From: Owenia fusiformis
Lineage: Eukaryota; Annelida; Polychaeta; Sabellida; Oweniidae
Length of the DNA stretch: 64,000 nucleotides
Reading direction: 5' to 3'
NCBI GenBank assembly: GCA_903813345.2
Contig: CAIIXF020000005.1
Location: 31,871,375-31,935,374, forward strand
Part shown: piece by piece, positions 22,901 to 51,486 of the stretch
Layout: every line of letters starts with the position of its first letter
Position numbering within the stretch: the first letter of the stretch is position 1
Program-made: the position numbers and the translations under genes
The notes under the pieces: generated by a model
Databases searched by the model: none
The model's input: the letters and a program-made list of their open reading frames with translations, nothing else
Told to the model about the DNA's origin: nothing

Positions 22901-25900
22901 TCGCTTCAATTAGATTTTCTTGAACTGTATGTTTAATAATGTTCTACCATCGAAATAAAGTCTTTAATTTAACTGATCAAAATGAGATATGGGAAAACGG
23001 ACACTGTAATTACCATATGCCGTTGTCTTTCTAAATTACTCAAATTCAGATTCCGTTGTCATTGACGATATCGAAGACGCTTTATTATGGCGATTCATGA
23101 GCCAATTTGATAGAAAATGGGATTTCATATGATACAGTATCACAAGAGCTCAATGTATGCACAGAATTAGCTACGATAAAATCCCATGAAATGAGGACCA
23201 AGTGATTGAACAGTTGAAGCGACGGTTACATGTATGTCCGCCATTTGTGACAACAGTATCTGACTTTACAATTTTTTAACAAGTAATGCATCTCGCTCAA
23301 CAAAACGGTCCTTTGTCCAAGGGTATTTCAATTCTTTCCATAACTGCCATCGTAGTGAAGCCCAACTTGAAGGATGTAACAAAAGAGAGTAAGATTCTGT
23401 ATGCACGTTCATGTACATGTACATTGTACATCTATATCAATTTTATTTCATAATGTTTATCACTTTTAGTATGACAAAGGCTTAGACTTGGATCTAGATC
23501 TGCGACTACGTAATAGCCAAGATAGTGAAGATGATGTCATTTTCACAAATATTCCTCTAGATGATAACAAGAAAGATGGCAACCAGGTGAACACAGAGCT
23601 TTATCCTCCAGGGGTGTACTACTCTACAGACACGCTCAATACTCCAGTAAGTAAAAATACAATTCTGAATTCTATAATGAGATATTACATTTTAATTGAT
23701 TAAGACTGTTCGATATTCTGTATTGGCACTAGACTTTGTCTCATTCCGATACAAAATTTCTCAAACAGAATATATCCTGTATTGCACTTCAAATCATTCA
23801 ATAACGTTTTTATCGTGTGATCCTCTGTATTGCTACTTAGATTGTCTCCTCCATACCAATATTTTCTGTATTTCGACGGAGGTGATCAACGGGGACAACC
23901 TCAGTAGCAATACAGATCGGTACAGCACAATAACTGACCAATCAGAGGGCTTCATTTTACAGATCATTCGATAAATTCAATTGTACATATGCTTATGTTG
24001 CTATTGCTAGCTAGGTTTTGGTTGAGGGAATGCTACTCTTGATTGAGTTAAGCCATCATCCATGTATGAAACATACCAAGCCTGAATCTAAATCATCAAT
24101 TTAAGACATGAAAAGACTAATGGTGCCTTCTGTTGCATTTCTGAAGTACAAATAGTGGTTTACAAACAAATTTTACTTGTTCCTGGCTAGAGACTAGAGA
24201 TTTCGCTGCAGAATTCCAGGCAGGATTGCACCTGTTATATCACCCTCCCTCTGGTTATGGGCCATTTATTGCTATTTTCAATGTTTGAAACAATTAAAAT
24301 ATGGAAATACTGAAAAGGGTAGTTTGTTCTTGTTTTGCAGAGATCTGTAGGGGAATCAGAAATAGATTCCGGCATTCTTACTTATGGCGAAGATGAAAAT
24401 AAGGAGAGAGGCAATTGGTCTGGAAAGCTAGATTTCTTACTTAGTTGCCTTGGTTACGCAGTCGGTTTAGGTATTTTATTTTTATATTGTTTGACGTACT
24501 TAGAGAAACATTGTTTTTACAATGAATTTCATCCTTTAAATCTGTTTCTCTGTTTTCTAGTCATGCTCTAGTTATCAAAAAATGATTATTCCAAGTTATA
24601 AAATAGCATGATTTTGGGGTATATGTAAATACATGGTAATGTTCTTTGTTCTATTTATCAAAAAGGATGATGGTTCCAAGTTATGGAATTTCATGATTTT
24701 GAGAAATTTGTAAATACCCTGTAATGTCCATTGTTCCTGAATTGTAGGAAATGTATGGCGATTCCCCTACTTGTGTTACCGGAATGGTGGAGGGGCATTC
24801 TTGATTCCATACGCCATTATGTTGGTGTTTGTGGGTCTCCCATTGTTCTTCATGGAGTTATGTTTAGGACAGTTTTGCAGTAGTGGGCCATTGACATGCT
24901 GGTCATACGCACCTATGTTCAAAGGTAGGCCTTCTCAATATGTTTTGTTTGATACAGTTAAACTGGAAAGTGGAACACATTTGGGACACCTAAAAAGTGT
25001 TCCATTTGAGAAGAAGGCTCATTTACAGTGGTTCATTTAACATTTAGTGAATAGGTCATGGGTGTTCCTTACCAAGGGTGTTCCACTTAACAGGTTTTAC
25101 TGTCATAGTATTTAACTACCATATGTTATTCAGATAGGCCATTTTAAGTTAATGATATGTTTAATATCCTTGTTCTAGAATATTATCATCTTTCTGTAGA
25201 ATCAGTTTTAGACAATATGAGCTCCCTATTTTATTTGAAAAATAGCCTCAATTGATTGTCTGACTCTCATACAATTATTTTTTATTATTTCCAGGGATAG
25301 GTGTTGCCATGATGATTGTGTCTAGTCTAGTAGCGGTATATTATAATATGATCATAGCCTGGTCACTCTATTATCTCATAGCATCATTTACATCAGAGTT
25401 ACCATGGGCTGACTGTGACAATGATTGGAATGGGAAAGGTAAGTTAGCACACAATAACTATACTCAAACCACTGTTCCACAACTAGTTACTTCGACGGAA
25501 CGTCAATGTATCAAAATGGATGAACTTCATTTGAGCAAAAAATGTGTCTTTTAGTAATTTGCAACATTTAAGATCATTATGTGGAAGAACTTAAAAGAAT
25601 TCTGGTGACATGATAAGTGTTTGTATAATAAAGCTACTACATCTATGTATGAGTTCTAACAAATGTTATTGATTATTTGATCAAAATGCACTTAAAACCA
25701 TAGCTTATGGATCAACTTCTATTTCACACACACCGTAATATAAAAAGATTCTTTATAAGTTTTATTTTGGCAGTATCTCTCTCTTCTATATTGCTGTATT
25801 TTACATTTGGATATTGAGTACATTGAGTGTGTTGTGTTGTAGGTTGTAGTTTAAGGTGGCCTCTATTGAAAGAAGATGAGTGCCAAGGTCGTGGAACAAT

Positions 25901-28900
25901 CGAATACCCCAATGGTACATGCTATACACAGCAAGACGACAAGACATACAAATTTACTGGTGTTTACAACGAATCTCTATTTTTTCAACAAACAAAAATT
26001 AAGCGTATCTTGCCAAGTGAAGAATACTACAAGTAAGATTTTCTTGGTTTCTGCTCAGTAGATGCACTTTTGTAAATAGTTGATTGATACAACAGTGATA
26101 TTTTTAGTATTGTAGCAAAATGTCACCACCTGTCATTTGTTACAGATGCCAAACACTGAATGCCAAATTCCAAACCACTTGTGGGGGTGACATGAAAATA
26201 GAAGAGAATAATACATACTTTTTGTTACCACCATGAGTTGGTGACAAATTGTTACATGAAGCCGTTTTTTGTGACTTTTGTTTTGGATAAGGCATTGAGA
26301 GTTGGCTTTTGCAACAAACTATTTCACTTTTGTAACTAGTTGCAGGTGGTGTATTTTAACACATTATTGCCTTGGAGTTTGATATTCTTTAATATGAGCC
26401 TTGTATACATCATAATTAGTGTTTGATTACAGTTTTTGCATGTTAAAACTTTATTTTGATTTTCAATTATTTTATGTTTGCTACTACCCTGCTACATTGC
26501 AGCATGTAAATGTACAAATTGTCAAAGAAATGTTAAAGAGCTAACATATTTTACTGCATGATTTTTAGATCTTTCTAGAAATTAATGTTACCTTGAATTT
26601 TAGTAATCTTGCTTTGCATCAACCATTGAATTGATATTACATCTTCATTTTCAAGAAAGATTGTCGTTACTTTCTGCTATAAATATTCCTAATTTAAATG
26701 TGTTTAACAAGCGAATCACTAATTTCACACCAATTTGTCAGTTTTTCAAATGCTGGACAGTTTTCAGGTTAAAGTAAAAAATTCAAATTTTGAGAAAAAC
26801 ATGAAAATTTGACAAATAGTGTATGAGGAACAAAAAAGAGACGGGTCAAATGTTAACACACAAGGAATTGATGCAAGACATTTAAAATTTGAGCTATATA
26901 TTTTGCTATTTTGATCTTTGTGTTTTCCAGTAATTATGTGCTGAATCTCAGTAGTGGAATAGATGATATGGGAGCCCCCCAGTGGAAGTTGGTCCTTGCC
27001 CTTATTGGGGCATGGGTCATCGCATTTATGTGCATGATTAAAGGCATCAAATCCTCTGGAAAGGTGATTTGTTGGCCTTCCATTGAATGAAGCATCCACA
27101 ATGTTAATACTATGAGTTCTGGGATGTTCAAGTGGTATCAGGTTGATCATGTAATCTTGGGAGATGTTACTTTTTTGGAAAATTTTATCGAAAATTTGCA
27201 AATCACATTCTTTACTTTTGCATTCACAAATTTAATCACATAAAAGATGCAAACTGCTAATTCACAATGATGTATATTGCGATTGAGTGTGACGTTTTGT
27301 GAATACAAAAACATGGGAATTGCAACAGAATGCGAATTTGGATTGAAAATGTTAATAACAATATGCCGATGTGCTGTTTTGTGAATAAGTTCTCAAATAT
27401 GCTATCATTTCATGACTAAGACATAGATATGCCTGCAGTTTGAAATCCCCTGAACCTATCATACAGTGTCAACATTGTGTTTCAGTTTCATGACTTGTAA
27501 TATATTTTGTCTGTGCATGGAGCTTTTCCCCTTATAATATCTACATATAATATAAAGACTAAGTATCCTTTCGTTTGCTTATTTTAATAATTATCATACA
27601 TTCATTTTGATTCATATTTTTCGTTATTTTGAAAATGTACAGGGTTTTTATGATTTCAGTTTATTGAATAATTAATGACGTGATAGATTAAAAGACCAAC
27701 CTGTATATTATATTTATTTTTTGATTATTTTGCTTGATTTAAAGTTACTCAAATTCTGCATGCTTTTATAAATATTTAAACAATAACCCATCAAGAGAAA
27801 AGAAAGTCTAATTCATATGTAACATAATAGTGCTGTTTTCTTGCAGGTTGTGTACTTTACAGCCACCTTCCCTTATGTAGTACTTGTTATTCTACTTATA
27901 CGTGGGGTGACCTTAGATAATGCGGGTCAGGGAATATTATTCTACCTTCAGCCTGACTGGCAGAGACTAGGAAATGCTAAGGTAAGGTGCTTCAAAAAGA
28001 CATTTGGGAAAGTTGTCCCAGCTCTAAGGGAATTGAATGTAATATCTTTCATGCTGATTTCCTTACAACTCTCACATACAGACTGCCTTATACATGTACA
28101 GTAAAACCTGTTAAGTGGAACACCTCTGTTAGTGAACCTCTTTAAGTGGAACACCAATTTGAACACTTTTTAGAGGTACCAAAGGTTTTCCACTTTGACA
28201 GGTTTTATTGTTTTGTTTTTTTGGATCGTAATTAGGCCAAATATTAAAAGTAATAATTACCTTTATTGATTTGCTTTATATTGTGTCATCCCAAAGCAAA
28301 ACCAAATAGGAAAATCTTAAGAAAACAAAACAAATTCAGTTCAATTCAGATGAATTTGTCAAACTAGTGGAATAAAACTCGTACAGTAAAATCTGTCTAA
28401 TATGATCACTACTTGGACTGGCCAAGTATCGAATTGGCAGGTGTTCACATTTCACATGTACATTTAACATTGTAGTCATTGTAAATAAAAAAAAATGGGA
28501 TAATTAGTGTTCATATTGAGAGATGTTCAGATTAGATAGGTGTTGGGGTATAGAGCTTTTAATGTACTTGTTATATTTTATTTGTATATATTTTTCATTA
28601 AGGTATGGAATGACGCTGCAGTTCAAATCTTCTTTTCTCTGTCCAACTGCTGGGGAGGCCTCATCGCTTTAGCCAGCTACAATAGATTCCACAATAATTG
28701 TCTCAGGTATGTTATTGTTGTTTTATTCAACCCAATCTCTGACACTAGAGAGAGTTGCATGGCTGCAAAGTGCATTTGCAAGAACACCTTTCACTACTCA
28801 GCGCATATTTTACAAAGTAGCACAACTTATTGCATCTTTTACACAATAGCCACTCTAAACTATAACTCATATCTTTATTATCCCAACAAATGAGGTTTGG

Positions 28901-31900
28901 AGGGGGATATTGTGAAAACTCATGTTGGTATGTCCAGATGATAAATTGCTATTTTGACCAGAGTGGTGAATAAAAAAGTCATTGATTTATTAGTAAAAAA
29001 ATCAACTTTATTTAAGTTAATTTAAGTTGTTTACATTATGTCATATGATATACAGTGTGTGGTAAATTCATTGGATTTGGACTATTTGACTTAAGAAAAT
29101 ATGCAAAACATAGAATGATGAGAGCAAAACAATATTGTAAAATTGTAAAATATTTTGAGACATCTCTATTTCTACATTTTGCATAAATATATAATATAAA
29201 ATACTATAAACAGTGCAAAACAATAATATACTGATTTGAATTTTTATGTGTGTTAGCAACTTAGCATGTATCACATACAGTAAAACCTGTCTAATCTGAA
29301 CTCCTTTTGGACCAGCCAAAAGTGCTCGGAGTAGCAGGTGTTCAGATTTTAAGCTTTTTTAATATGAGAAATAACAAATTTGGTGTTCAGAGTAGAGAGG
29401 TGTTTGGATATACAGATCTCACACTGTAGTGCTTGAATTATAATTCCTATCACTTTTTTTCCTTGATACATATTGTATCATAAACCTCTAACATTCAGTT
29501 TGTTAATTTGGTGGTTCTAGGGGGTAATTTCAAACCCAATTGAATAAATCCGACATGCTTTTTGATTGAGTTCAACCCAGCCACCAACTATAATGTTGTC
29601 TGGTTCAACATGGCCTTGCCACACCCTGCCATCTAGTACACCAGGAGTTCCACTTCTGCACTGCTTATATGTGATACCTGCGGGGCTATCAGCATGAAAG
29701 AAACCAACTTTGTCAGAAGGTTGAACCTGGAACCAAAATTTTAATGTTACATAATATGAAAGTATACTCTATATACTCCTGGAAACTTGAAGTAGTATGT
29801 CAAACTAATACAAATCATGTAGTGTATACATTAAAAAAAGTTTATATGAGCTGCTGTTACTTGTCAATCTTTACAATCTCTAAGTTTTATGCTATGATTA
29901 AAAAATTACAAGAAGTTGATAAAAATTTTAAAAATCAACTTTTTTTTACAGCCACCCTACATAACATTGAATGAGTTTTACCTGAATTCTCTTTTCGGCT
30001 TCTATATGAAATGTATTTATTCTTCTCGGGTGTATTAACACTTCATTTGATCCCACTAAAGTGAAATTTAATGACAACTCATTTCGACGCCATATTTGCA
30101 TGTGAACCGTTGTGTACATCTCAGAGTAAATAACCCATTTGGAGATTCCCCCTCCTTTTGTAATGCGTAGAGTCTTCATGTCAATCACAGTCACCAAGTT
30201 TGGACCATCAACAGTGCCGTAATTCATCATTGGATTTTCTTGGTAAATTGGTACAGTTGATGATGCTTTAAGAAATGGAAGATTTAGAAACTGCATTACA
30301 TACACAGTATTCCACAATTCATTGTTATAGTACAAAAGTCTTGTTAGCACTATGTAAAAAATGTTGGTTTTGAATAATTTTTCTGACTTAAAACAACCTA
30401 CCTTCACACTTAGGGACGTTTGTAGAACAGTCTGAAATTAAATGAGTACCAATAAATTGTATATTATGGGTCCCATGATAATTCATTGATTTAATGCAAT
30501 ATATCTGAGTCATGCTTTGAAACATGTTGCTTTATTACTACAAAAGAAAATTCAACGTTGGCACTTTTTATCAAATATTTGGAGTGTAATGGAGTGACTT
30601 ATCCAACACAGAATCATTCTTAAAAATTATGAAAATCATGACACTTATGAGAGACATTTGGCCAAGATAGAAGTCATATTTAAAATATTTCCAGTGTATC
30701 ATTATAGTTGCTTCAGAGTTGTTTACCAAATAGACCATAGTATTATAGGTTGAAATGGTCTCATTAGGTATTTTTTTGTAGATTGTGAATCATTATGTCA
30801 CCAGAAGTGGTGACATATTGTTATAGTCTCCAATTTCTTTATGGACAGTGTTTGGCGTCTGTAACAAATTACAAGGTGCTGACATTTTGTCATGTGAATG
30901 TCTTGTAGGGGTTTAATATTTCCATACCTGTTACATCATACTTGTCCCTATAATCTTTGTTTCTGCAATAGGTCTCAGTATTGCCACACCAACCACCTGT
31001 ACTACAACATGGATAGATCCCATCCCAGCCAGATATAGGGGAATCAATGGGGCATTCAAGGTTGTTAAACAATGGCCCACATCTACCATCTTGACTTACT
31101 ATTGAAGGGTGTTGCACTAAAAATACATATAAATGCTATGATGTCAAGCATTTGGACCAGGCTCAAGATAAATTTTAGAGGTTATATTGATAATGCAGCA
31201 CACATAATATTGTTGTATTGTACTGTACAATATTAGCCTATTTTAATCTTATTATTACATTTGTTAAATTTATCTCTCTGTATCAGTTTTCAATGCAATT
31301 AATTTATTTCCTATTTTCTTGAATTAAGTACAACAAATGATATACACTACCTGACATGTGCTTGTAAACGTTTTGGCTCACATGGTGAATTATTTTGGAT
31401 CATATTTTAGCTTGTTAGTATTCTTACCCATGCATTGATCATGTTTTGGTACAATTGTAGCAACACCATTTATGGAAGTGCATGCCATAGAGTGGAACCC
31501 ATTAGTAATTTCATAACCATCATTACATTCATATGTAACACTGTCACCAATCATCAAAGAATCATCTCCAGAAACAATCATAGCATTTTCAACATTTCCT
31601 AGTTGTGCACATGCTGTAAAATGGAGTCTACTGTTATTTCCAGAATGGGCAATGTTTAAAAAAGTCAATCATGCATACATTTGTAGAATCATTCATTACA
31701 TAATAACATTATAATATAAATTGATTTTTTGTCTTGTTCTCAAAAGAATTATGTACGTGTGGTTTAAATGATTCTTTGACCTATATTTGCCTATGCTTTA
31801 CACTTATTGTCTGAGCTAAAATTGCTTCTTGTTTTTAAAGATGTCATGGTTTGAGTTCTTTTAATTTTTACTACCTGTTTGGAGTTTCATTGGTCGTTAA

Positions 31901-34900
31901 CAATATTTAGATAAAAATGCATATGAAATGTATATTTCATACCTTGGGAAGAGGCATATTTCTCTCTATAGTCTACACAGCCAGAACATGTACAATGTGG
32001 CACCTCTTTGCCACACCATCCTCCAGGGCTGCAACAGGGGTAGATTCCATCCCACCCTGGGATTGAACTAGCAATTGGACACTCAGTGTTGTCAAACTGT
32101 GCACCACATCGACCAGTGGAAGTAATCTTTGAAGGATCTTGTTCTTTCAAAACAAATCAGTTGTTTGTATTGATTTAAATCGGGAGAAATCCTGATTTTT
32201 ATCCTGATTTTAAGAAAATATCTGATTTTAAGAAATATCCCGATACTAGCTTAGACTATGCATCTTTTCTGGAGAGATTTATTGAATCCAAAGATAAAAT
32301 ACTGACAAGAAATATTCAGTTTAAAAGTAACTCTTCATGATGATCATTTTGAGCACTTAAATGCAATATTAAAATGTACTTACCTTTCACACGTGTACAT
32401 ATTCCACAGGTTTGCTTGCAATAACGTGTGGCAAAGTCATTCTCTTCAGAACATAAGGTTGGCATGTGTTCCAAAAGTTGCAGACAATTATTTGCATCAT
32501 CCAAACAAGCTACATCTATATCTGGTGGGATACCTTTACAGACATATGCTTTTTCATAGGCACATGACGTATCATCCCAGTGCCATGGATCAGTTCCCCA
32601 AAATTTTTTATTGATAAAGGTACAGTTATCAAGTCCTTCTTTACCATTGGGTTTTCCCACCTTCCAATCTGTATATGGTTCATATGATCCATCAGACCAT
32701 TTCCAGCGGTTTTCCTGTTCTTGGTCATTCCATCCTATCCAGTATGAACCAGTAATACCACTAAAATTAATTATTTTAAGAATACAATGTAAATCAGAGA
32801 TTGCTCAGTACTAGGAAGTATCATGTCATATCAGATAATACAGTACACATGTTGACATTTTATTTTTTATTTTACCCATTTGATGCTACATTCTGTATGA
32901 AGTTATCTTCAGCTTCATCATGCATACTGGCAAGGTGACCTCCCTCTGTTATACAATACTCTTCTGCCAAATACCAGGTATGGGCACTGGGGAATGCCTT
33001 GTAGCAGTTCTCATTGTAAAAACTCCATCCAGATTCGCAACCATCTAAAATATACAACTCAATCAAGAATTTCTTAATTATTGTGTTTTCACAGATTGGT
33101 TATTCTTGTACCATTTAAAAAAGTATTTGGGTAAATTCCAGATTTAGCTAAATCTCACAAAAAGCAGAAATCCTATTATGAAACAGTGCTTGTTTATTAC
33201 ATTATTTTTGATTTAGACTACAATAGTGAAAGAAATTATATTAGTGGCAAATGGATGAATGGTTAAAAAAAGTCATATGAAATCATTATCATACCCTCAG
33301 CCATTCTTTTGCATATAAACTTCATAGTAGCATTGCAGTTCTTATCGTCCCAATATCTTCCACTTTTTTTAATAACGGCTGTGCAATCTTCACCGTTACT
33401 CCCTCCATTATTTGGCTTATTACGATACCACCACCTTAGGTATGCAGATGGATTCCCATCCAACCACTTGAATCTTGGATATGTGTTGTACTCGCCAACA
33501 TCCTCTGTTAGACCTATCCAAAGATCATATACTCCATGGCTGAAGAAGAGAATATAACACTTAAATGCTACAAGTCTACAAAGACATATACAAATATATT
33601 TATTTCAAATGATAGGCAAGTGACATCACTTCAATAATTCCATCTTTCCAAGTATATCTTGAAACATTTACACAATTGTATGAAGCTTTAATGATCAGAT
33701 GATGACCAAAGTTGGTTTAAAAGCATTGGTATATCACTCTATAGATTGCCAATGTGTTTGCCTTAATCTCCTTATGGAATCTGTGTACATCATTAATATA
33801 AATCATCTGTGCATACTGTCCATTTACCTTTCTGCTAATTCATAGATGAGCGTTGGTTTTGGCATATCCAATAACCAATTTTACAAACAAGCCTCATTTG
33901 ACATTAAAATTTATCTCAGAATGTTCATATAATAATCATATAATATGTAAATAATTCATAATAATAATCATATATATATGTAATGACTTCAGTATGAATG
34001 AAATGTCCCTTGGTCTTCTGGTCTTGGATTGTGATATTGATTCTTGAATGGTGGGGGGAAAGGGGGTATTAGACTTTTGGCACTAGTGCTTATATATTTC
34101 GCTGTTGTCTTATGATTATTCTCTACAAGAATGGATAGCGTAAATGATGTTGAACTGAAATAAACCTTGCCATTTCCATGATTTCAAATTTTACCTTTCG
34201 CATGCATGGCTCTGAGAAAACATTTGCTCATGATTGTTCATGTGATAATATCCTGATATTGATTGGACATCATGTACTGATGAGCTTGATTTTAATACAT
34301 TATGTTAATGAATACGAAAGAATTCGGGGAGCTACTCACTTCTTCTACTGCTGGTTTTTACAAAATCAAATTACTTAGATAAATACAGGGTGTCCAAAAA
34401 GGCATTGTGTGAAAATTCAGATAAAATGCATATTTATAAGTTCTAATATTTATTGAAATGACTTGTATCCTAGCATATACACACATGCACATGTTTTTTT
34501 GTTTTGTGTTTTGTAGGGATACACTCATCGTGGCATTCGGGAATTGCTGCACCAGTGTGTTTGCTGGCTTTGTCATCTTCTCCTTCCTTGGTAACATGGC
34601 TGGCATCATGAATACCACTGTGGATAAAGTCGTTGATAGCGGTAGGAAAACTTAGCCCCTTTTGTTTGTTCAATTGTAGCATAAGTGTATTAATAAGTCA
34701 TAAAAAAGAGAAAAGTATTCATTCACTTATAAACACCTTTTTATAAATGTTTGCTCTATATAAATGGATATAGATGTGCAACAGATAATGACTTAAGACA
34801 CACCCGTTATAAACATGGTGTATAAACCATTTGAAACCACAATCGAAATTTGGCATTTCCGTGTGTTGGACATTTTTGCCTTTTTCTACTTGGTATTAGA

Positions 34901-37900
34901 TCATAAAAAGACTTCCTAAGAATTTTATGCAGAAGCACGATTGACATTGTCATTGTAAGTGCTGGTTTTTCTCTGCGAATAAGTAGCTTTTCAATTCAAA
35001 ATATATTGCGTGAAAATCTGAAATTTCTTGTAAAAATGAACTGCTCCTTCGCATTGACCAAATTCACAGGCTGGTATCGTAAGATTTGTCTGCTGTGACG
35101 GAGCATGCTATTTTTCATAAAAACATTAAGAATACTTCACAATTTATTTTTTAACTTATATGTTTAGTTTTATCAAAGAAAATTACCTACTCCATGCAAT
35201 GAATATATCATTTGCGGATAAGCTTCACTTCTATTTGAAGTTCAGTAACGCTAGGAACAAAAGCTATTGAAAACGGCTCCAGAGTATCAAACTCTAAAAT
35301 GTACCATTTCTTTTTTAACTTTTTAATGGCATGATATATTGACATGATAATATTTACATATGTTTTCAGCATAACTCTGAATGTATTTATGAAATCTGGA
35401 TGTATTTGGTCTTTTTAATTTTCTTTAAAAAATAATGTTTAGATTTTTTCTGTTGTGATGGAGCAGTTTCACAGTTCATATTTGCAACTGCTCCGTCACA
35501 GCGGACAAAAAATTAAACATTATTTGTATAAAAGAAATTAAAGAGACCCAATACATTAATTATTTTATCATTACCTTCAGAGTTATGAAAAAATATGTAA
35601 ATATTAATGGGTCACTATATCGTGCCATTACAAAGTTAAAAAAAGAAATGATAAATTTCAGATTTCGATACTCTGGCGCTGTTTTCAATAGCTTTTACTC
35701 CTAGCGTTATGGGACTTCAGATAGAAGTGAAGGTTACCCGAAAATGATATATCCATTGCATGGTGTAAGTAATTTTCTCTGATATAATGAAACATATGAG
35801 TTAAAAAATAAATTGTGTGGTTTTCTTAGTGTTTTTATGAAAAATAACATGCTCCGTCACAGCTGACAAATCTTTCTATACCAGCCTGTGAAATTAAGTG
35901 ATGCGATTCAATGGAGAATTGAATATTTGTAAGCAATTCACAGTGTCTTGTGACACTTTTTCTCAAAGGTGTTCATAACAGCCATTTTTACTTGTGTTAT
36001 TTTTCATTTTTTTACTGTCTTGAAGAATACTGTATAACATGAAATATTGCCGTGGATATAAAGTTGCCGATTGCCGAATGTAAAACAGAAACGGCAACAT
36101 AAAATTCGGAAATATAATGAAGTAATTGAAGATCGATCTTAGTGGGCGATAATATGGTAGTTGTCTAATGTGTGTCAACTTACTGTAATAGGGTAATTTT
36201 CTAACGAGTATCAACTTACTATACTTTAACAAAAATCATAATAAAATACGATAAAACCGAAGCTTTATTCCCCAGCATAAAATTACAATAAAAAGTTAAT
36301 AATAAAAATGTTGCAGTTAAAATGTATGCAGTAAATTCTATACAATATTAAATGGATTGTCATGTTAAACTTTCAAAAGATCTAATTGTATCCAAGAGCT
36401 TTGGAAATCCCAGTATTAAAAGTTTCTAATCCCGATATTAAAAGTTTTTAATCCTGGTATTAATTGTCCTGAGTCATTCAAATGCGGGTAATCACTCAAA
36501 TTGTCACTCATAATGTCAGGATGTCAGGTTTTCTGAGTCAGTCAAATGAAGGTAATTAAAATTCAGTTGTACATCAAAATTATATTAGGGGTGTCAGCTT
36601 AGCAATATTTTATTTGGCTTTACATTTAGGGGTGTCAGGTCGGCAAACTTTTATTCGGCAATAACAATTTTAATCCAATTCGGAAAATAAAGCACCCAGA
36701 TTTAATACATGTTATACAGTAGTGGAGCGATTTGTTCATATATGATATGTAAATATTTATAAGCAATATACACAGTCTTATTGCACTTTTATAGTATATT
36801 CTTGTCTTGAAGGGCCAGGCCTTGCATTTATAAAGTATCTTTGTTTTGTAGGGCCAGGCCTTGCATTTATAGTGCATCTTTGTCTTGTAGAATCAGGCCT
36901 TGCATTTATAGTTTATCTTTGTCTTTTAGGGCCAGGCCTCGCATTTATAATATATCCTTGTCTGTTAGGGCCAAGCCTTGCATTTATAGTGTTTCCTTGT
37001 GTTGTAGGCCCAGGCCTTGCATTTATAGTGTACCCATTTGCTGTGACAATGATGCCAGTGTCTCCCCTTTGGGCCATCCTGTTTTTCTTCATGCTCATAA
37101 CACTTGGACTTGATAGTCAGGTCAGTAGCATGCTACCCTTCAACAGAGATCAACCATGTATGAACTCTAAGGAATTTTTTCATCTTAAATGCATAGCAAA
37201 TGAGTCAGAAAATAGTGAAGCAATATTTTGAAGCTATAAGTAGCTAGTAGTTATCTCACATTTGAAATCCCAGTAGTAATTGATTAGTGATTATATTACA
37301 CAATCCTAATCTTCAGGGTACATTCCTCAAAAATGATATTTGAATAAAATAGTTGACCTAATGACCTTTGTTGGTGATTATAGCCTCTGAGCATCTGTAA
37401 CAAATGGTTACATTTACATTATAATGTCAAGTGAATGCTTGTTTCTTTTCTAGTTTGCCATGTTGGAAACAGTCATGACGTCTATAATGGACCAATTTCC
37501 ACATGTTCGGAAAAAGAAGACATTCATAATTCTCTTCATCTCCATTTTGTTCTTCCTTTGTGGTTTGACATTGACCTGTAGGGTAAGTACGTCAAGGTCA
37601 AGGTCAAGGTCATGTAATATTGATGACCTGGGAATGACATCACAATATTGATCCCTGGATCCAGGCATACAGCCATGTGGTAGATTAGGAGAGTGCAGGT
37701 ATTCACCAAAAGTGTTCATTGTTGTCTTGTGTGAACAGAAAATGAAGCAATATGACTTGTTAGTGTTTGACCTTTGTGGGATTTATATTAATGTATAAGT
37801 TGCTGTTGAAATAGAATATAACTTTCAAAGCAAGCTATCTCTCTATTCCATAAGGCATAAATATGAATTAATAATATCGTTTTATGAAAAACTTGTGTAA

Positions 37901-40128
37901 TGTTGATTGAATGTAGGTAATGTTCATAGAATATTTTCCTATTGCAGGGAGGGGCCTACATGTTACAGTTAATGGACACATATTGTGGAGGATGGGCCAT
38001 TCTCATTATAGGAATTGTTGAGAGTATATCTATAGCTTGGATTTATGGTAATTTGTACATCGATTATATTTTTTATTTGGTCTATTTGGGACTTGATTAA
38101 TGTGAACAGTCTAATCAATTTATGGATGTATCTTCTCACTTCAATAGATTTAACTTATGCACATAATCATACTCATACACACAAGCAATGTTGACTTCCC
38201 AGGGTAGACCACATCTACAGTATGTACAATATTGTCAAATTTTCAATATTTTATTTATATTATCAATGCAGCGGTATGCATCTTGCCAGTTTTAACATGA
38301 TTTGCACCCTTTGACTGTTCATTTCTGATTCATCATTAATATATCTAATTTCAGGAGCAGACAGGTTTATGAATGACATTGCATTGATGACTGGAAAAAA
38401 GCCTTCTATTTGGTGGCGAATATGCTGGCAAGGCCTGACTCCATTCCTCATCATTGTAAGTACATTCTCAAATCTGTAATGATGTGTTTGAATGATAGTA
38501 TATCATTCTTTTTCAATAGTGAATTTAGTATTCCACATCATATATTTTGTAAGACTATTATTTGTCTATATTTGTTTAGTAATGGCTTGTTCATGGAATT
38601 GACTATAGTTGTTGTTGCTTAATTGTGAAGATTGGTCAAATAAGGCTAGAACATATATAGTCTCCAACTTTTTTGTGGATGGTGTTCGGTGTTTGGTGGT
38701 TGGTCATTGGTTTATGTAACAGATGGCATATTAATGCCATGTTTTTGTATTATTTTCAGTTCATTCTATTATTTACGTGGATAGACTACTCCCCAGCTAG
38801 GTTTGGCGACTATTCCTTCCCTGAATGGGCAGATGGCTTGGGCTGGTGCATGAGCTTTACTTCTGTTATATTCATACCAATTATGGCTGTCTATAAGCTT
38901 TCTAAGGAGGAAGGGTCATTCTTAGAGGTATGTATCAAATCTGGAGATTCTATCTGATCATGGGCTTCATTTTTTCTGGTAAAGTTTGGGTCATGAATCA
39001 TTTACTTTACTTACAGACTTCTTATAAACCTGGAAATGTCTGCATGCATTTATTTCCCATAACAGGGTCTAAGTGTCAGGGATATTGGGAATAATAAAAC
39101 GTGTCAGGGAAATGTATGAAACTTAACTTAGTATCAGGGTTGAAATGTTCTTTTGACATTTTGAGCATATATTTTCTGAATGACTCAAAGTTACAAATTG
39201 TTTCATGATAGCGTCTACGCCGGGTGACGACACCATCAATTGAGTGGGGCCCAGCACTAGTGAAACATCGCAGATTGGTGAATTATGTGAATGGCTTTTG
39301 GACTGACCCTAAAGCTGCACTGGGTGTTGTCAACCCAGCTATGTCATATAGCAGTATGAATGGAAGCTCTGTCAAGGTAGGTAGATCTGCTACTATGTGT
39401 AATAAGTATTACAGAAATACACAATTTTATACTATGAAGTGCGGTATGGTAGAAAACAGACAAATTGTTTGTGGTTGAGTGCAGTGTAATCCTGGAAAAT
39501 GCATGAAAATTGAGGTTGAAGGGTATGTTCTATCCGTTTCCATGGCAACCAGTTAACCATGTGACATGGACTTTTTATAACACAGTAAGTTACCCGATAC
39601 AAATATATCCTAGTAATTTGAAAACATCCTGCTGAGTATTTAATAAGTTCTAGCCCACTTTCATAGTAGGGGTTTAAATTATTGTCTAGAAGGGAATAAA
39701 TGGCCACAAAATCTCAAAGCTGAAAATCTTAGCTCCAATAATTCATATAATTATGCAAAATCATGCAAGTAAAATGAAAGATTATGTCCCATGAATTTCC
39801 TCTGAGTGCATGTTCATATCCTCATTCTGAATGTATTAATCGGCTTACTCATTATAAAACACTCCATTGGGGTGTCTTTATTGCTGTTATGCAAATAACT
39901 TCACGAGATTTCATTTAAAATCAAAGAATTGAATGATGAAATTACTTTCTGTTTCAGGTGAGCTACAATGGTGTGCCAATAAGCCTGACTCCTGGCTATT
40001 CTACCCCTGGGTACTCCACCCCTGGTGGTGAAAGTATAGATGGGAGGAGAACTCCAGGATCTCAAGCTACAGGAACATCGTACATCTCACAGGCCAATAG
40101 TTCAGTGTCATATGAAAGTGTTGTATAA
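19902..40128 (+). CDS. SLC6 sodium/chloride-dependent neurotransmitter transporter, glycine-transporter-like, complete (17 exons)
   Basis: An SLC6 symporter moves an amino acid or amine across the plasma membrane with Na+ and Cl-. Exons: 19902-19922, 23470-23646, 24341-24470, 24748-24924, 25295-25438, 25843-26032, 26931-27063, 27847-27981, 28603-28706, 34517-34641, 37008-37120, 37454-37582, 37948-38047, 38355-38455, 38760-38927, 39212-39376, 39958-40128. They sum to 2283 nt, 760 residues plus TAA, all in phase. TM1 has [15 protein letters not shown], the family ion/substrate signature. The segment DCDNDWN to SSGIDDMG is the large glycosylated loop EL2 (NGTCY, NESLF sequons). [18 protein letters not shown] is TM5; [20 protein letters not shown] is the unwound TM6; [10 protein letters not shown] is EL4; [10 protein letters not shown] is TM8. 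The C-terminal tail ([14 protein letters not shown]) is Ser/Thr/Gly-rich. The acidic N-terminus is long. Family match is closest, by eye, to GLYT/SLC6A5-A9; substrate is inferred. Intron 9 carries an antisense lectin-gene fragment. Confidence 0.93.
20285..21300. repeat. Fold-back element interrupted by a nested transposon
   Basis: The left arm, 20285-20465, includes the self-complementary AGGACTATAGTCCT and 'agcattcttttcatgtagtt'. It is the reverse complement of 20668-20710 joined to 21160-21300. The two right-arm pieces become continuous when 20711-21159 is removed. The loop (20466-20667) is about 200 bp and non-coding. Confidence 0.85.
20711..21157. mobile_element. TA-flanked miniature transposon, second copy, nested in a fold-back arm
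   Basis: 447 bp with ends AAGTGCTG (one change from CAGTGCTG) and CAGCACTG, bordered by TA on both sides (20709-20710 and 21158-21159). It is the inverted counterpart of 4888-5498 in USP19 but lacks about 175 internal bases. Confidence 0.85.
22861..23270. repeat. Inverted repeat pair, possible miniature element
   Basis: The left arm near 22861-22914 (taaagtcggatacc ... aaatggcggacataactgtc) is the diverged reverse complement of 23211-23270 (gacggttacatgtatgtccgc ... tgactttac). The interval has no coding features. Confidence 0.6.
24953..25104. mobile_element. Pogo/Tigger-type miniature element in SLC6 intron 4
   Basis: It starts ACAGTTAAACTGG and ends AACAGGTTTTACTGT, with 'gtgttccattt' and 'ggtgttccact' inside. 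It is a relative of the terminal sequence of the relic at 49594-51293. Confidence 0.6.
28097..28211. mobile_element. Pogo/Tigger-type miniature element in SLC6 intron 8
   Basis: TACAGTAAAACCTGTTAAGT at the left and GACAGGTTTTATTG at the right are inverted terminal repeats around about 90 non-coding bases with 'gtggaacacc' words. Confidence 0.65.
28383..28553. mobile_element. Pogo/Tigger-type miniature element, decayed right end
   Basis: It begins TACAGTAAAATCTGTCTAAT and contains 'gactggccaag', 'ggtgttcaca' and 'gttcagattagataggtgtt', as in other members. The right terminal repeat is lost. Confidence 0.5.
29277..29416. mobile_element. Pogo/Tigger-type miniature element shared by both duplicate blocks
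   Basis: It begins TACAGTAAAACCTGTCTAAT. The same insertion, at the same relative site, is at 52043-52180 in the downstream block, so it predates the duplication. Confidence 0.65.
29517..33844 (-). pseudogene. 5'-truncated paralogue of the mosaic lectin gene, antisense inside SLC6 intron 9
   Basis: Nine full exons and a tenth cut one, in gene order: 33828-33844 (remnant), 33295-33539, 32876-33044, 32384-32760, 31943-32143, 31428-31613, 30928-31116, 30402-30431, 29982-30265, 29517-29726 (stop TAG at 29517-29519). They encode the second half of a C-type lectin domain, a whole second C-type lectin, an ShKT six-cysteine domain, hevein-like 1, sushi, hevein-like 2, a linker microexon and the C-terminal module. 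Every splice signal and frame is intact, and each exon matches the length of its partner at 52281-56299 except 33295-33539, which is 9 nt shorter. No signal peptide, start exon or upstream domains are present: similarity breaks at 33844 in mid-exon. Either it is a recent pseudogene or it is transcribed from an unknown promoter. Confidence 0.8.
35030..35930. repeat. Large near-perfect palindrome in SLC6 intron 10
   Basis: Arms of about 430 bp (35035-35467 and 35489-35925) are reverse complements with scattered mismatches around a spacer of about 20 bp. Inner ends read 'tgatggagcag' and 'ctgctccgtcaca'; outer parts read 'cacaggctggtat' and 'ataccagcctgtg'. No coding content; it could fold into a very long cruciform or RNA hairpin in the pre-mRNA. 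Confidence 0.85.
36793..37031 (+). repeat. 39-bp unit, six tandem copies, over the splice acceptor of SLC6 exon 11
   Basis: Each unit joins an intron tail (T-rich, ending TAG; AAG in the first) to the first bases of exon 11 (gccaggccttgcatttat). Potential exon starts are 36813, 36852, 36891, 36930, 36969 and 37008, all exactly 39 nt apart. The annotated exon uses the last one. Because 39 is 13 codons and no unit has a stop, each acceptor would be in frame, adding [13 protein letters not shown]-type repeats. Confidence 0.9.
37592..37612 (+). promoter_or_regulatory. Three tandem AGGTCA nuclear-receptor half-sites
   Basis: TCAAGGTCA followed by two more AAGGTCA words directly after the donor of SLC6 exon 12. 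TCAAGGTCA is the monomer site of SF-1/ERR-type receptors. Function is speculative; it may be only a simple hexamer repeat. Confidence 0.3.
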
Positions 40129-40323: not shown

Positions 40324-41455
40324 ATCGTACCTAATAAAGGTACGATATGTTTCTACGTATCAAAGTTAAGAACTGATTAGTTTTTGGGCATTCTGGGTAA
40401 ATTTTAAGGTGGCCATTTTGGATTTTCCGTCCTAAAATCTTCACTTTCAAGACTTGTCTACAGGTTTCCAGCCAAACCATTTGACAGATTCATCTGAAAT
40501 TTTCAGGAATGTTTCTACGTATCAAAGTTAAGAACTGATTAGTTTTTGGGCATTCTGGGTAAATTTTAAGGTGGCCATTTTGGATTTTCCGTCCTAAAAT
40601 CTTCACTTTCAAGACTTGTCTACAGGTTTCCAGCCAAACCATTTGACGGATTCATCTGAAATTTACAGGGATGTTTCTACGTATCAAAGTTAAGAACTGA
40701 TTAGTTTTTTGGCATTCTGGGTAAAATTTAAGGTGGCCATTTTGGATTTTCTGTCCTAAAATCTTCACTTTCAAGACTTGTCTACAGGTTTACAGCCAAA
40801 CATTTTGACGGATTCATTTGAAATTTACAGGGATGTTTCTACATATCAAAGTTAACAACTGATTAGTTTTTGGGCATTCTGGGTAAATTTAAAGGTGGCC
40901 ATTTTGGATTTTCCATCCTAAAATCTTCACTTTCAAGACTTGTCTACAGGTTTCCAGCCAAACCATTTGATGGATTCATCTGAAATTTTCAGGGATGTTT
41001 CTATGTATCAAAGTTAAGAACTGATTAGTTTTTTGGCATTCTGGGTAAAATTTAAGGTGGCCATTTTGGATTTTCTGTCCTAAAATCTTCACTTTCAAGA
41101 CTTGTCTACAGGTTTCCAGCCAAACGTTTTGACGGATTCATTTGAAATTTACAGGGATGTTTCTACATATCAAAGTTAACAACTGATTAGTTTTTGGGCA
41201 TTCTGGGTAAATGTTAAGGCGGCCATTTTGGATTTTCCGTCCTAAAATCTTCACTTTCAAGACTTGTCTACAGGTTTCCAGCCAAACCATTTGATGGATT
41301 CATCTGAAATTTTCAGGGATGTTTCTACGTATCAAAGTTAAGAACTGATTAGTTTTTGGGCATTCTGGGTAAATTTTAAGGTGGCCATTTTAGATTTTCC
41401 GTCCTAAATTCTTCACTGTCACACTGCTGTGTTTTAGGTACGATATTGTTCACGT
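40324..41455. mobile_element. Hairpin-ended element A with seven 162-bp core repeats
   Basis: The 5' end is a hairpin, ATCGTACCT-aataa-AGGTACGAT (40324-40346). The 3' end carries a third copy of the arm, AGGTACGAT (41436-41444), followed by ATTGTTCAC. Between them a 162-bp unit starts at 40349, 40511, 40673, 40835, 40997, 41159 and 41321, the last incomplete. Units contain 'ggtggccattttggattttc'. The unit is shared with element B (46676-47555), whose hairpin stem differs. The layout recalls bivalve pearl/HINE-type repeats; that identity is a guess. Confidence 0.8.
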
Positions 41456-46675: not shown

Positions 46676-47555
46676 ATCGCACCCTAAGGTGCTATATTGT
46701 AATCAGTTTGCCGGGCGGGCGGTTGGGTGGGCGGGTGGGCGTCCCGAAATAAACTTGTCTACAGGTTTCCAGCCAAACCGTTTGAGGGATTCATTTGAAA
46801 TTCTCAGGGAAGTTTCTACCTATGAAAGTTTAGAACTGATGAGTTTTTCGGCATTCTGGGTAAATGTTAAGGCAGCCATTTTGGATTTTCCGTCCTAAAA
46901 TCTTGTCTGTCAAGGCTTGTCTACAGGTTTCAAGCCAAACCGTTTGAGGGATTCATTTGAAATTTTCAGGGATGTTTCTACTTATGAAAGTTTAGAACTG
47001 ATTAGTTTTTCGGCATTCTGGGTAAATGTTAAGGCGGCCATTTTGGATTTTCCGTCCTAAAATCTTGTCTGTCAAGGCTTGTCTTCAGGTTTCCAGCCAA
47101 ACCATTTGAGTGATTCATTTGAAATTTTCAGGGATGTTTCTACCTATGAAAGTTTAGAACTGATTAGTTTTTCGGCATTCTGGGTAAATGTTAAGGTGGC
47201 CATTTTGGATTTTCCGTCCTAAAATCTTGTCTGTCAAGGCTTGTCTACAGGTTTCCAGCCAAACCGTTTGAGGGATTCATTTGAAATTCTCAGGGATGTT
47301 TCTACCTATGAAAGTTTAGAACTGATTAGTTTTTCGGCATTCTGGGTAAATGTTAAGGCGGCCATTTTGGATTTTCTGTCCTAAAATCTTGTCTGTCAAG
47401 GCTTGTCTACAGGTTTCCAGCCAAACCCTTTGAGGGATTCATTTGAAATTCTCAGGGATGTTTCTACCTATGAAAGTTTAGAACTGATTAGTTTTTCAGC
47501 ATTCTGGGTAAATGTTAAGGTGGCCATTTCTGTTCAAGGGTGCGATATTGTTCAC
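46676..47555. mobile_element. Hairpin-ended element B with five 162-bp core repeats
   Basis: The 5' end has ATCGCACCCT (46676-46685), part of the hairpin GCACC-ctaa-GGTGC, then ATATTGT. The 3' end has AGGGTGCGAT (47537-47546), then ATTGTTCACC. The 162-bp units have phase points 46812, 46974, 47136, 47298 and 47460 and are close relatives of those in element A. It is absent from the homologous position in copy 1 (near 27490). Confidence 0.8.
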
Positions 47556-49274: not shown

Positions 49275-49408
49275 GTCGTGTACTTTACAGCCACCTTCCC
49301 TTATGTGGTACTATATATCCTACTTATACGTGGGGCGATTTAGATAATGCGGGACAGGGAATCATATTCTACCTTCAGCCTGACTGGCAGAGCCTAGGAA
49401 ATGCGAAG
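49275..49408 (+). pseudogene. Decayed copy of SLC6 exon 8
   Basis: 134 nt against 135 in the intact exon (27847-27981). [20 protein letters not shown] is still readable, then one base is missing and the frame meets TAG. The acceptor CTTGCAG and donor GTAAAT survive. Confidence 0.9.
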
Positions 49409-51412: not shown

Positions 51413-51486
51413 GTATGGAATGATGCTGCACTGCAAATCTTTTCTCTGTCCAACTGCTGGGTCATAGCCACAATTATTGTCTCAGG
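51413..51486 (+). pseudogene. Decayed copy of SLC6 exon 9
   Basis: 74 nt against 104 in the intact exon (28603-28706). VWNDAALQIFSLSNCW is readable, but most of the TM6 segment [12 protein letters not shown] is deleted (30 nt missing in two gaps). Acceptor CAAG and donor GTATGT remain. Confidence 0.9.

Follow-up and report, generated by a model that had tools for sequence, protein, structure and literature searches.

An SLC6 gene in the 64,000-nt stretch of DNA analysed here (the window; C5:31871375-31935374 of the 498-Mb genome) carries a 39-bp tandem array that spans the border between an intron and the following exon, contains part of both, and presents the splice acceptor six times. Our best reading, which we hold to be very probable, is that of a boundary-straddling minisatellite of the 'mirage' kind, in which the exon-proximal site at 37008 is the main acceptor, the period equals 3 × 13 by chance and the array is mostly neutral. 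What the preliminary description of this DNA had observed is confirmed; its interpretation of the array as a series of in-frame isoforms finds support in part only, and for the most part does not.

The array and its six acceptors

The gene is read as sixteen exon stretches, E1 to E16; E2-E15 were matched in other SLC6 genes of the genome, and E1 and E16 come from frame reading alone. The exon next to the array, E10, matches the PF00209 SNF profile from profile position 326 onward, E10-E11 match it with an E-value of 4.7e-26, and the nearest solved sequences to E9-E11 are those of proline and glycine transporters (~1e-36); by these matches the gene belongs to the SNF/SLC6 (sodium:neurotransmitter symporter) family. 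The E10 region would correspond to extracellular loop 4 of SLC6 structures. It had been labelled exon 11; as read it is the tenth of the sixteen stretches, and the numbering is arbitrary. The features are as follows, in window coordinates, with acceptor scores and their percentiles among 107 acceptors.

23512-40125, plus strand: SLC6 gene as read, 16 exon stretches E1-E16 (open frames and genome matches)
34518-34641, plus strand: preceding exon E9 (its matched part), last base G, donor GTAGG at 34642 (SLC6 exon match)
36788-37032, plus strand: 39-bp tandem array, 6.3 copies, across the intron/exon border (TRF, repeat search)
36813-36851, plus strand: unit u1, upstream acceptor gaag|GGCCAG, score 11.3 (66th percentile)
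36852-36890, plus strand: unit u2, acceptor gtag|GGCCAG, score 11.9 (79th percentile)
36891-36929, plus strand: unit u3, acceptor gtag|AATCAG, the weakest of the six, score 5.5 (19th percentile)
36930-36968, plus strand: unit u4, acceptor ttag|GGCCAG, the strongest of the six, score 13.4 (93rd percentile)
36969-37007, plus strand: unit u5, acceptor ttag|GGCCAA, score 8.9 (36th percentile)
37008-37120, plus strand: authentic exon E10, acceptor score 11.4 (70th percentile), donor GTCAGT at 37121

Two further observations concern the gene outside the array. The last exon (39958-40125) encodes a small tandem repeat, and TRF finds a 15-bp repeat there in three of the downstream copies described below (p2-p4). 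The intron between E8 and E9 contains, at window positions 30890-33604 on the minus strand, open reading frames matching C-type lectin (two), Sushi and a sub-threshold chitin-binding domain.

TRF gives the array a period of 39 and 82% matches, and its copies exceed those in all of 300 shuffles of the upstream 700 nt. The six AG acceptors of the preliminary description are exactly where it had placed them, with first exon bases at 36813, 36852, 36891, 36930, 36969 and 37008, the last being the start of the exon, and with a spacing of 39 nt throughout. The units carry copies of the splice signal: AG is present at 6/6 acceptors, and a pyrimidine-rich tract precedes it in each unit. Each unit also has TTTAT ~22 nt upstream of the AG, a putative branch-point-like element, and most have a further AG 6 nt downstream of the acceptor. 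The division of the unit between intron and exon is ambiguous. About the first 28 bases are exon-like and only ~10-11 are intron-only; the left edge of the array, near 36788, begins at TTTATAGT, which is also present in the exon and would give a split of 25 intron and 14 exon bases. The proposed split of 18 plus 21 therefore does not stand as the unique one, and does stand as one of several, with anything from 10-11 to 25 intron bases possible.

The acceptors were scored with a weight matrix from 107 SLC6-family acceptors, whose boundaries were set at the nearest AG and may in some cases be wrong. All six fall inside the range of the family, in keeping with the claim that the array multiplies a good-looking acceptor. 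Two upstream copies, u2 and u4, outscore 37008 and u1 is about its equal, and by sequence strength 37008 is not singled out among the six.

The six acceptors were also rightly described as in phase and stop-free. The E10 frame is open from 36813 onward through all six units, and the phase fits, as the preceding exon supplies a G (34641) and the last acceptor supplies GC to form a split glycine codon. Over 36813-37007, however, only one of the three forward frames has stops, which occur in every unit, and the other two are open, the second of them from 36811 to 37113. Because two of three forward frames are open, the lack of stops is no sign of protein use, and the stop-free E10 frame counts as weak evidence. 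Note that most of the 39-bp unit, as read, is exon-like sequence and open by descent, and that one period in three, 39 nt among them, would keep phase by chance.

Paralogous arrays on C5 and at the homologous acceptor

When the array and its exon served as a DNA query, four further downstream loci came up on C5 (31945228, 31993632, 32027603 and 32069615). They belong to four tandem 3'-partial SLC6 copies (p2-p5) over C5:31943147-32075643, in which exons from E9 or E10 onward were recognised. Exons E1-E6 gave no match in the 20 kb tested per copy nor elsewhere in the window, and a genome search with E2-E9 gave none for E2-E6 near p2-p5 among the matches listed; the same search gave an E7-like match at C5:31952712. 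Two exon remnants within the window were assigned to the first downstream duplicate.

49275-49408, plus strand: broken (split) E7 copy assigned to p2 (exon match)
51413-51460, plus strand: broken, truncated E8 copy assigned to p2 (exon match)

In addition, p2 has two stops in E12 and E10 of p5 is frameshifted. By simple Nei-Gojobori-type counts, in which multi-hit codons are approximated, the p3/p4 comparison gives 4 synonymous against 12 non-synonymous changes (dN/dS ~0.88), which suggests little constraint on them since their split; the window gene (W) differs from p3 by 13 synonymous and 4 non-synonymous changes (dN/dS ~0.09), and its dN/dS against p2 is also ~0.09. We read p2-p5 as 3'-partial duplicates that appear to be decaying, at various stages. 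Other repeats occur in this region: a 162-bp minisatellite forms separate arrays, some between the gene and the first duplicate and some inside that duplicate (window 40347-41421 and 46754-47529; L018, 2581-2925), and 27- and 72-bp arrays are found downstream of W, p2, p3 and p4.

The number of array acceptors varies among the paralogous loci: 6 in W, 4 in each of p2, p3 and p4, and 10 in p5. In p2 one spacing is 34, corresponding to the deletion of 5 exon-side bases, which puts the first two acceptors out of frame; the four acceptors of p3 are all in frame, as are those of p4. The p5 array, the longest and most uniform (98% matches), has an open frame within itself and precedes the frameshifted exon. 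Units u1-u3 are common to W, p2, p3 and p4 with few differences, and the array is therefore older than these duplications. Units u4 and u5 of W differ from every other full-length unit at 5 or more of 39 positions and so are not fresh copies. Between loci, the arrays of W and p2 differ at 4/137 sites (hand count), a level of ≤4 differences reached by 9 of 192 overlapping 137-site intron windows; those of W and p3 differ at 2/117 sites, with 74 of 187 intron windows at ≤4 differences. Intron divergence was taken from local alignments, as the global alignment of the upstream intron had large gaps and was uninformative. Array divergence lies within the spread of the intron windows, close to the lower limit in the case of p2, and the W/p2 array may have been subject to gene conversion or mild constraint.

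The homologous acceptor was examined in 42 rows, made up of the window, a related gene on C4 and 40 other loci, four of which are p2-p5 (one locus, L004, gave no row). Of the 37 rows outside the C5 cluster, two have clear copies of the exon start together with its acceptor, on C4 and C3, and the remaining 35, three of them with ≤210 nt of upstream sequence (L064, L065 and L081), have no clear array at this site. One of the 35 (L083) has a single marginal copy (22/36, p 0.01), as expected by chance given the number of tests. The C4 gene (C4:12942700, L063/L066) carries, in a stretch of 700 nt, at least 12 extra copies that match at 23-32 of 36 positions; 10/12 among the copies listed are out of frame, as are 8/9 upstream acceptors above the score cut (an AG inside an exon copy being left out). 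With scores of 12.8 and 12.6, two of its upstream sites lie slightly above the authentic acceptor (12.4). It matches E3-E15, some partially, has no stop in the matched stretches and may be a working gene. Frequent upstream use there would give mostly frameshifted products, which suggests that the exon-proximal site is normally chosen. At the C3 locus (C3:4714680, L078) there are two copies (27 and 31 of 36) with spacings of 66 and 63, in phase, and both hit in-frame stops. The frame thus stays open through the arrays of W, p3, p4 and p5, and does not in those of p2, C4 and C3.

Border copies at other splice sites

A survey of 76 SLC6 sequences, the window and the C4 gene included, covered 106 acceptors and 91 donors; the loci were picked by family match and not by repeats, although the E10 position is over-represented, having been specifically sought. 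Ten of the 197 boundaries beat 200/200 shuffles, with ~1 expected by chance, and two of the flagged loci (L015 and L003), having only 2 and 1 matches above the shuffles, were counted as chance. Clear copies (≥25/36) are present at 8/197 boundaries, or 7/196 without the window case.

E3 donor of L032: single extra copy
E3 donor of L041 (C12:25400050): 35-bp array
E4 donor of L052 (C12:10941050): 119-bp, single extra copy
E8 donor of the C4 gene: single extra copy
E9 acceptor of L017 (C5:204250, L017 and L086): 61-bp, six copies
E10 acceptors of W, the C4 gene and L078: clear copies

The distances between copies (e.g. 35, 61, 119 and 56) are mostly not divisible by 3. TRF rows near exons were set aside for L037 and L044 (short-period) and for L056 (a 52-bp array in the intron only).

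Myosin served as a second-family control; a sugar transporter family was dropped from this role, the 9 scored matches among 221 candidates being long single stretches with few introns. By one test applied to both families, an off-exon copy at ≥22/30 accompanies 4/52 myosin and 6/64 SLC6 exon matches. The SLC6 hits comprise four loci also found in the boundary survey (L052, L041, L032 and L063, part of the C4 gene) together with L004 and L028, which enter here as counts, as does the myosin L088. Among the other myosin hits, L105 has one diverged upstream copy and two are acceptor arrays.

Myosin L122, 1-264: acceptor array, 32 bp × 8 copies
Myosin L099, 636-908: acceptor array, 61 bp × 4.5 copies

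Border copies therefore recur in two unrelated gene families, which are too few for a genome-wide claim. Separately, twelve myosin exon matches lie in a row at C9:37986009-37994334, all to one profile region (~18-84), which looks like a cluster of mutually exclusive exons.

Probable origin of the array and comparison with known systems

On this reading a 39-bp piece, reaching from the last bases of the intron into the first of the exon, would have been duplicated by slippage or unequal exchange, and gains and losses of units would have followed. The pre-mRNA would then present six comparable acceptors, the exon-proximal one at 37008 most likely being spliced in most transcripts. We infer this choice because upstream use at several of the other arrays would shift the frame or hit stops; exon definition is a possible basis for it. 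The array would be mostly neutral, its divisibility by 3 a matter of chance, and rare in-frame isoforms its by-products. That five C5 loci have the array, with the frame broken in p2 and the exon frameshifted in p5, supports this mirage reading. Against it stand three points: u1, u2 and u4 appear about as strong as 37008 or stronger, which leaves the choice of the last site unexplained by sequence; 6/6 units are in frame in the sole full-length gene of the cluster; and the W/p2 array divergence seems low for an intron, only 9/192 windows being as low.

The preliminary description had proposed that the six acceptors are used alternatively, giving transporters with 13-65 extra residues in loop 4 and a copy number that varies between individuals. 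All six being in frame and stop-free, with several scoring as well as 37008, agrees with this proposal, as does the finding that most human border repeats which modify introns also show a repeat-retaining transcript (PMC2812944); by analogy both spliced forms may be made here too. However, openness is not specific to the coding frame, off-frame arrays occur at other exons, the frame is lost in the p2 and C4 arrays, and stops interrupt that of C3. With the frameshifted exon of p5 added, these do not bear out an in-frame extension of the gating loop as a meaningful feature; in-frame isoforms are possible and not favoured, and we regard their alternative use on this scale as unlikely. A passive minisatellite had been expected to be out of frame in relatives, and among the paralogs this is so in part: two p2 acceptors and most of the listed C4 copies are out of frame, the C3 copies are in phase with stops, and p3 and p4 are in frame.

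Alternatively, the array might regulate splicing, its acceptors and pyrimidine tracts acting as decoys that slow or gate removal of the intron and not as exon starts. Arrays at one homologous acceptor in three SLC6 lineages (C5, C4 and C3), and the several high-scoring upstream acceptors retained by C4, would fit such a role, but the 35 rows without a clear array (the marginal L083 and the three with short upstream sequence among them) argue against it, and with arrays at other exons too, recurrence points to no role at the E10 site; we give this very little credence. Less credible still is a cassette model, in which a single transporter gene with one 5' half and several sets of exons 10-16 would use the five C5 loci as alternative 3' cassettes, the array lying at the switching junction. 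The searches that found no E1-E6 match near p2-p5 (for E2-E6, among the genome matches listed) and the low W/p3 dN/dS speak for it; the E7-like match at C5:31952712, the broken E7 and E8 and the E12 stops of p2, the frameshift of p5 and the p3/p4 ratio near 0.9 speak against, and on the last two grounds together with the broken p2 we rejected it as the main reading.

In NAGNAG-type tandem acceptors, competing in-frame AGs add or remove residues. There the shift is 3 nt; here the spacing is 39 nt, and the whole acceptor module is copied with 14-29 exon bases. Closer precedents exist. At the acceptor of the amphioxus globin gene BflGb6, 'mirages' of 150-160 bp units occur in 6 and 3 copies in two haplotypes, RT-PCR suggests regular splicing while use of cryptic sites in the copies is allowed for, Adh3 and other loci are cited as further cases, and mirages are proposed as seeds of new introns or exon extensions (PMC3087553); they are also reported at troponin C, with similar repeats in PGBD5 (PMC3902484). 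Like the window array, the mirages of Adh3, troponin C, BflGb6 and BflGb9 are minisatellite-like repeats over a border, many units of which carry splice signals. They vary in copy number and occur on acceptor and donor sides; here counts vary between paralogs and both sides are likewise found. The window unit, by contrast, is 39 bp and in frame, against 150-160 bp in BflGb6 and 10-72 bp in Adh3, and amphioxus splicing was seen by RT-PCR whereas our array is known from genomic sequence. In human segmental duplications, border repeats gave 27 intron modifications, 66% of them also with a repeat-retaining transcript, and the mean over all variable repeats is a 30-bp unit present 4 times (PMC2812944). 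These too are minisatellites at borders of recently duplicated genes that vary between paralogs, although they were found through transcripts and are described as forming alternative introns (PMC2812944). The arrangement is thus less unusual than first claimed, with border copies recurring in two gene families here and published for amphioxus and human. A boundary array in an SLC6 gene was absent among the literature matches listed, which says little given their limited coverage.

A broader proposal goes further than the mirage reading: border-duplicating minisatellites would affect a few percent of the splice sites in genes of unrelated families and create a graded series of 2 to ~13 closely similar competing acceptors, and the in-frame series studied here would be spliced at a low level, so that individuals would have variable sets of loop-4-lengthened transporters open to selection. 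We offer it as speculation that is rather unlikely to hold in full.

Taken singly, the window array is an oddity with precedent; its recurrence in the genome is the more useful finding and merits follow-up. One genome offers many natural constructs in which similar-looking 3' splice sites follow one another, some in frame and others not; three lineages have them at one position of paralogous genes, and decayed genes hold matched copies. This recurrence makes it testable how the spliceosome chooses among near-equal acceptors, and whether new introns or extended exons arise from arrays of this kind.
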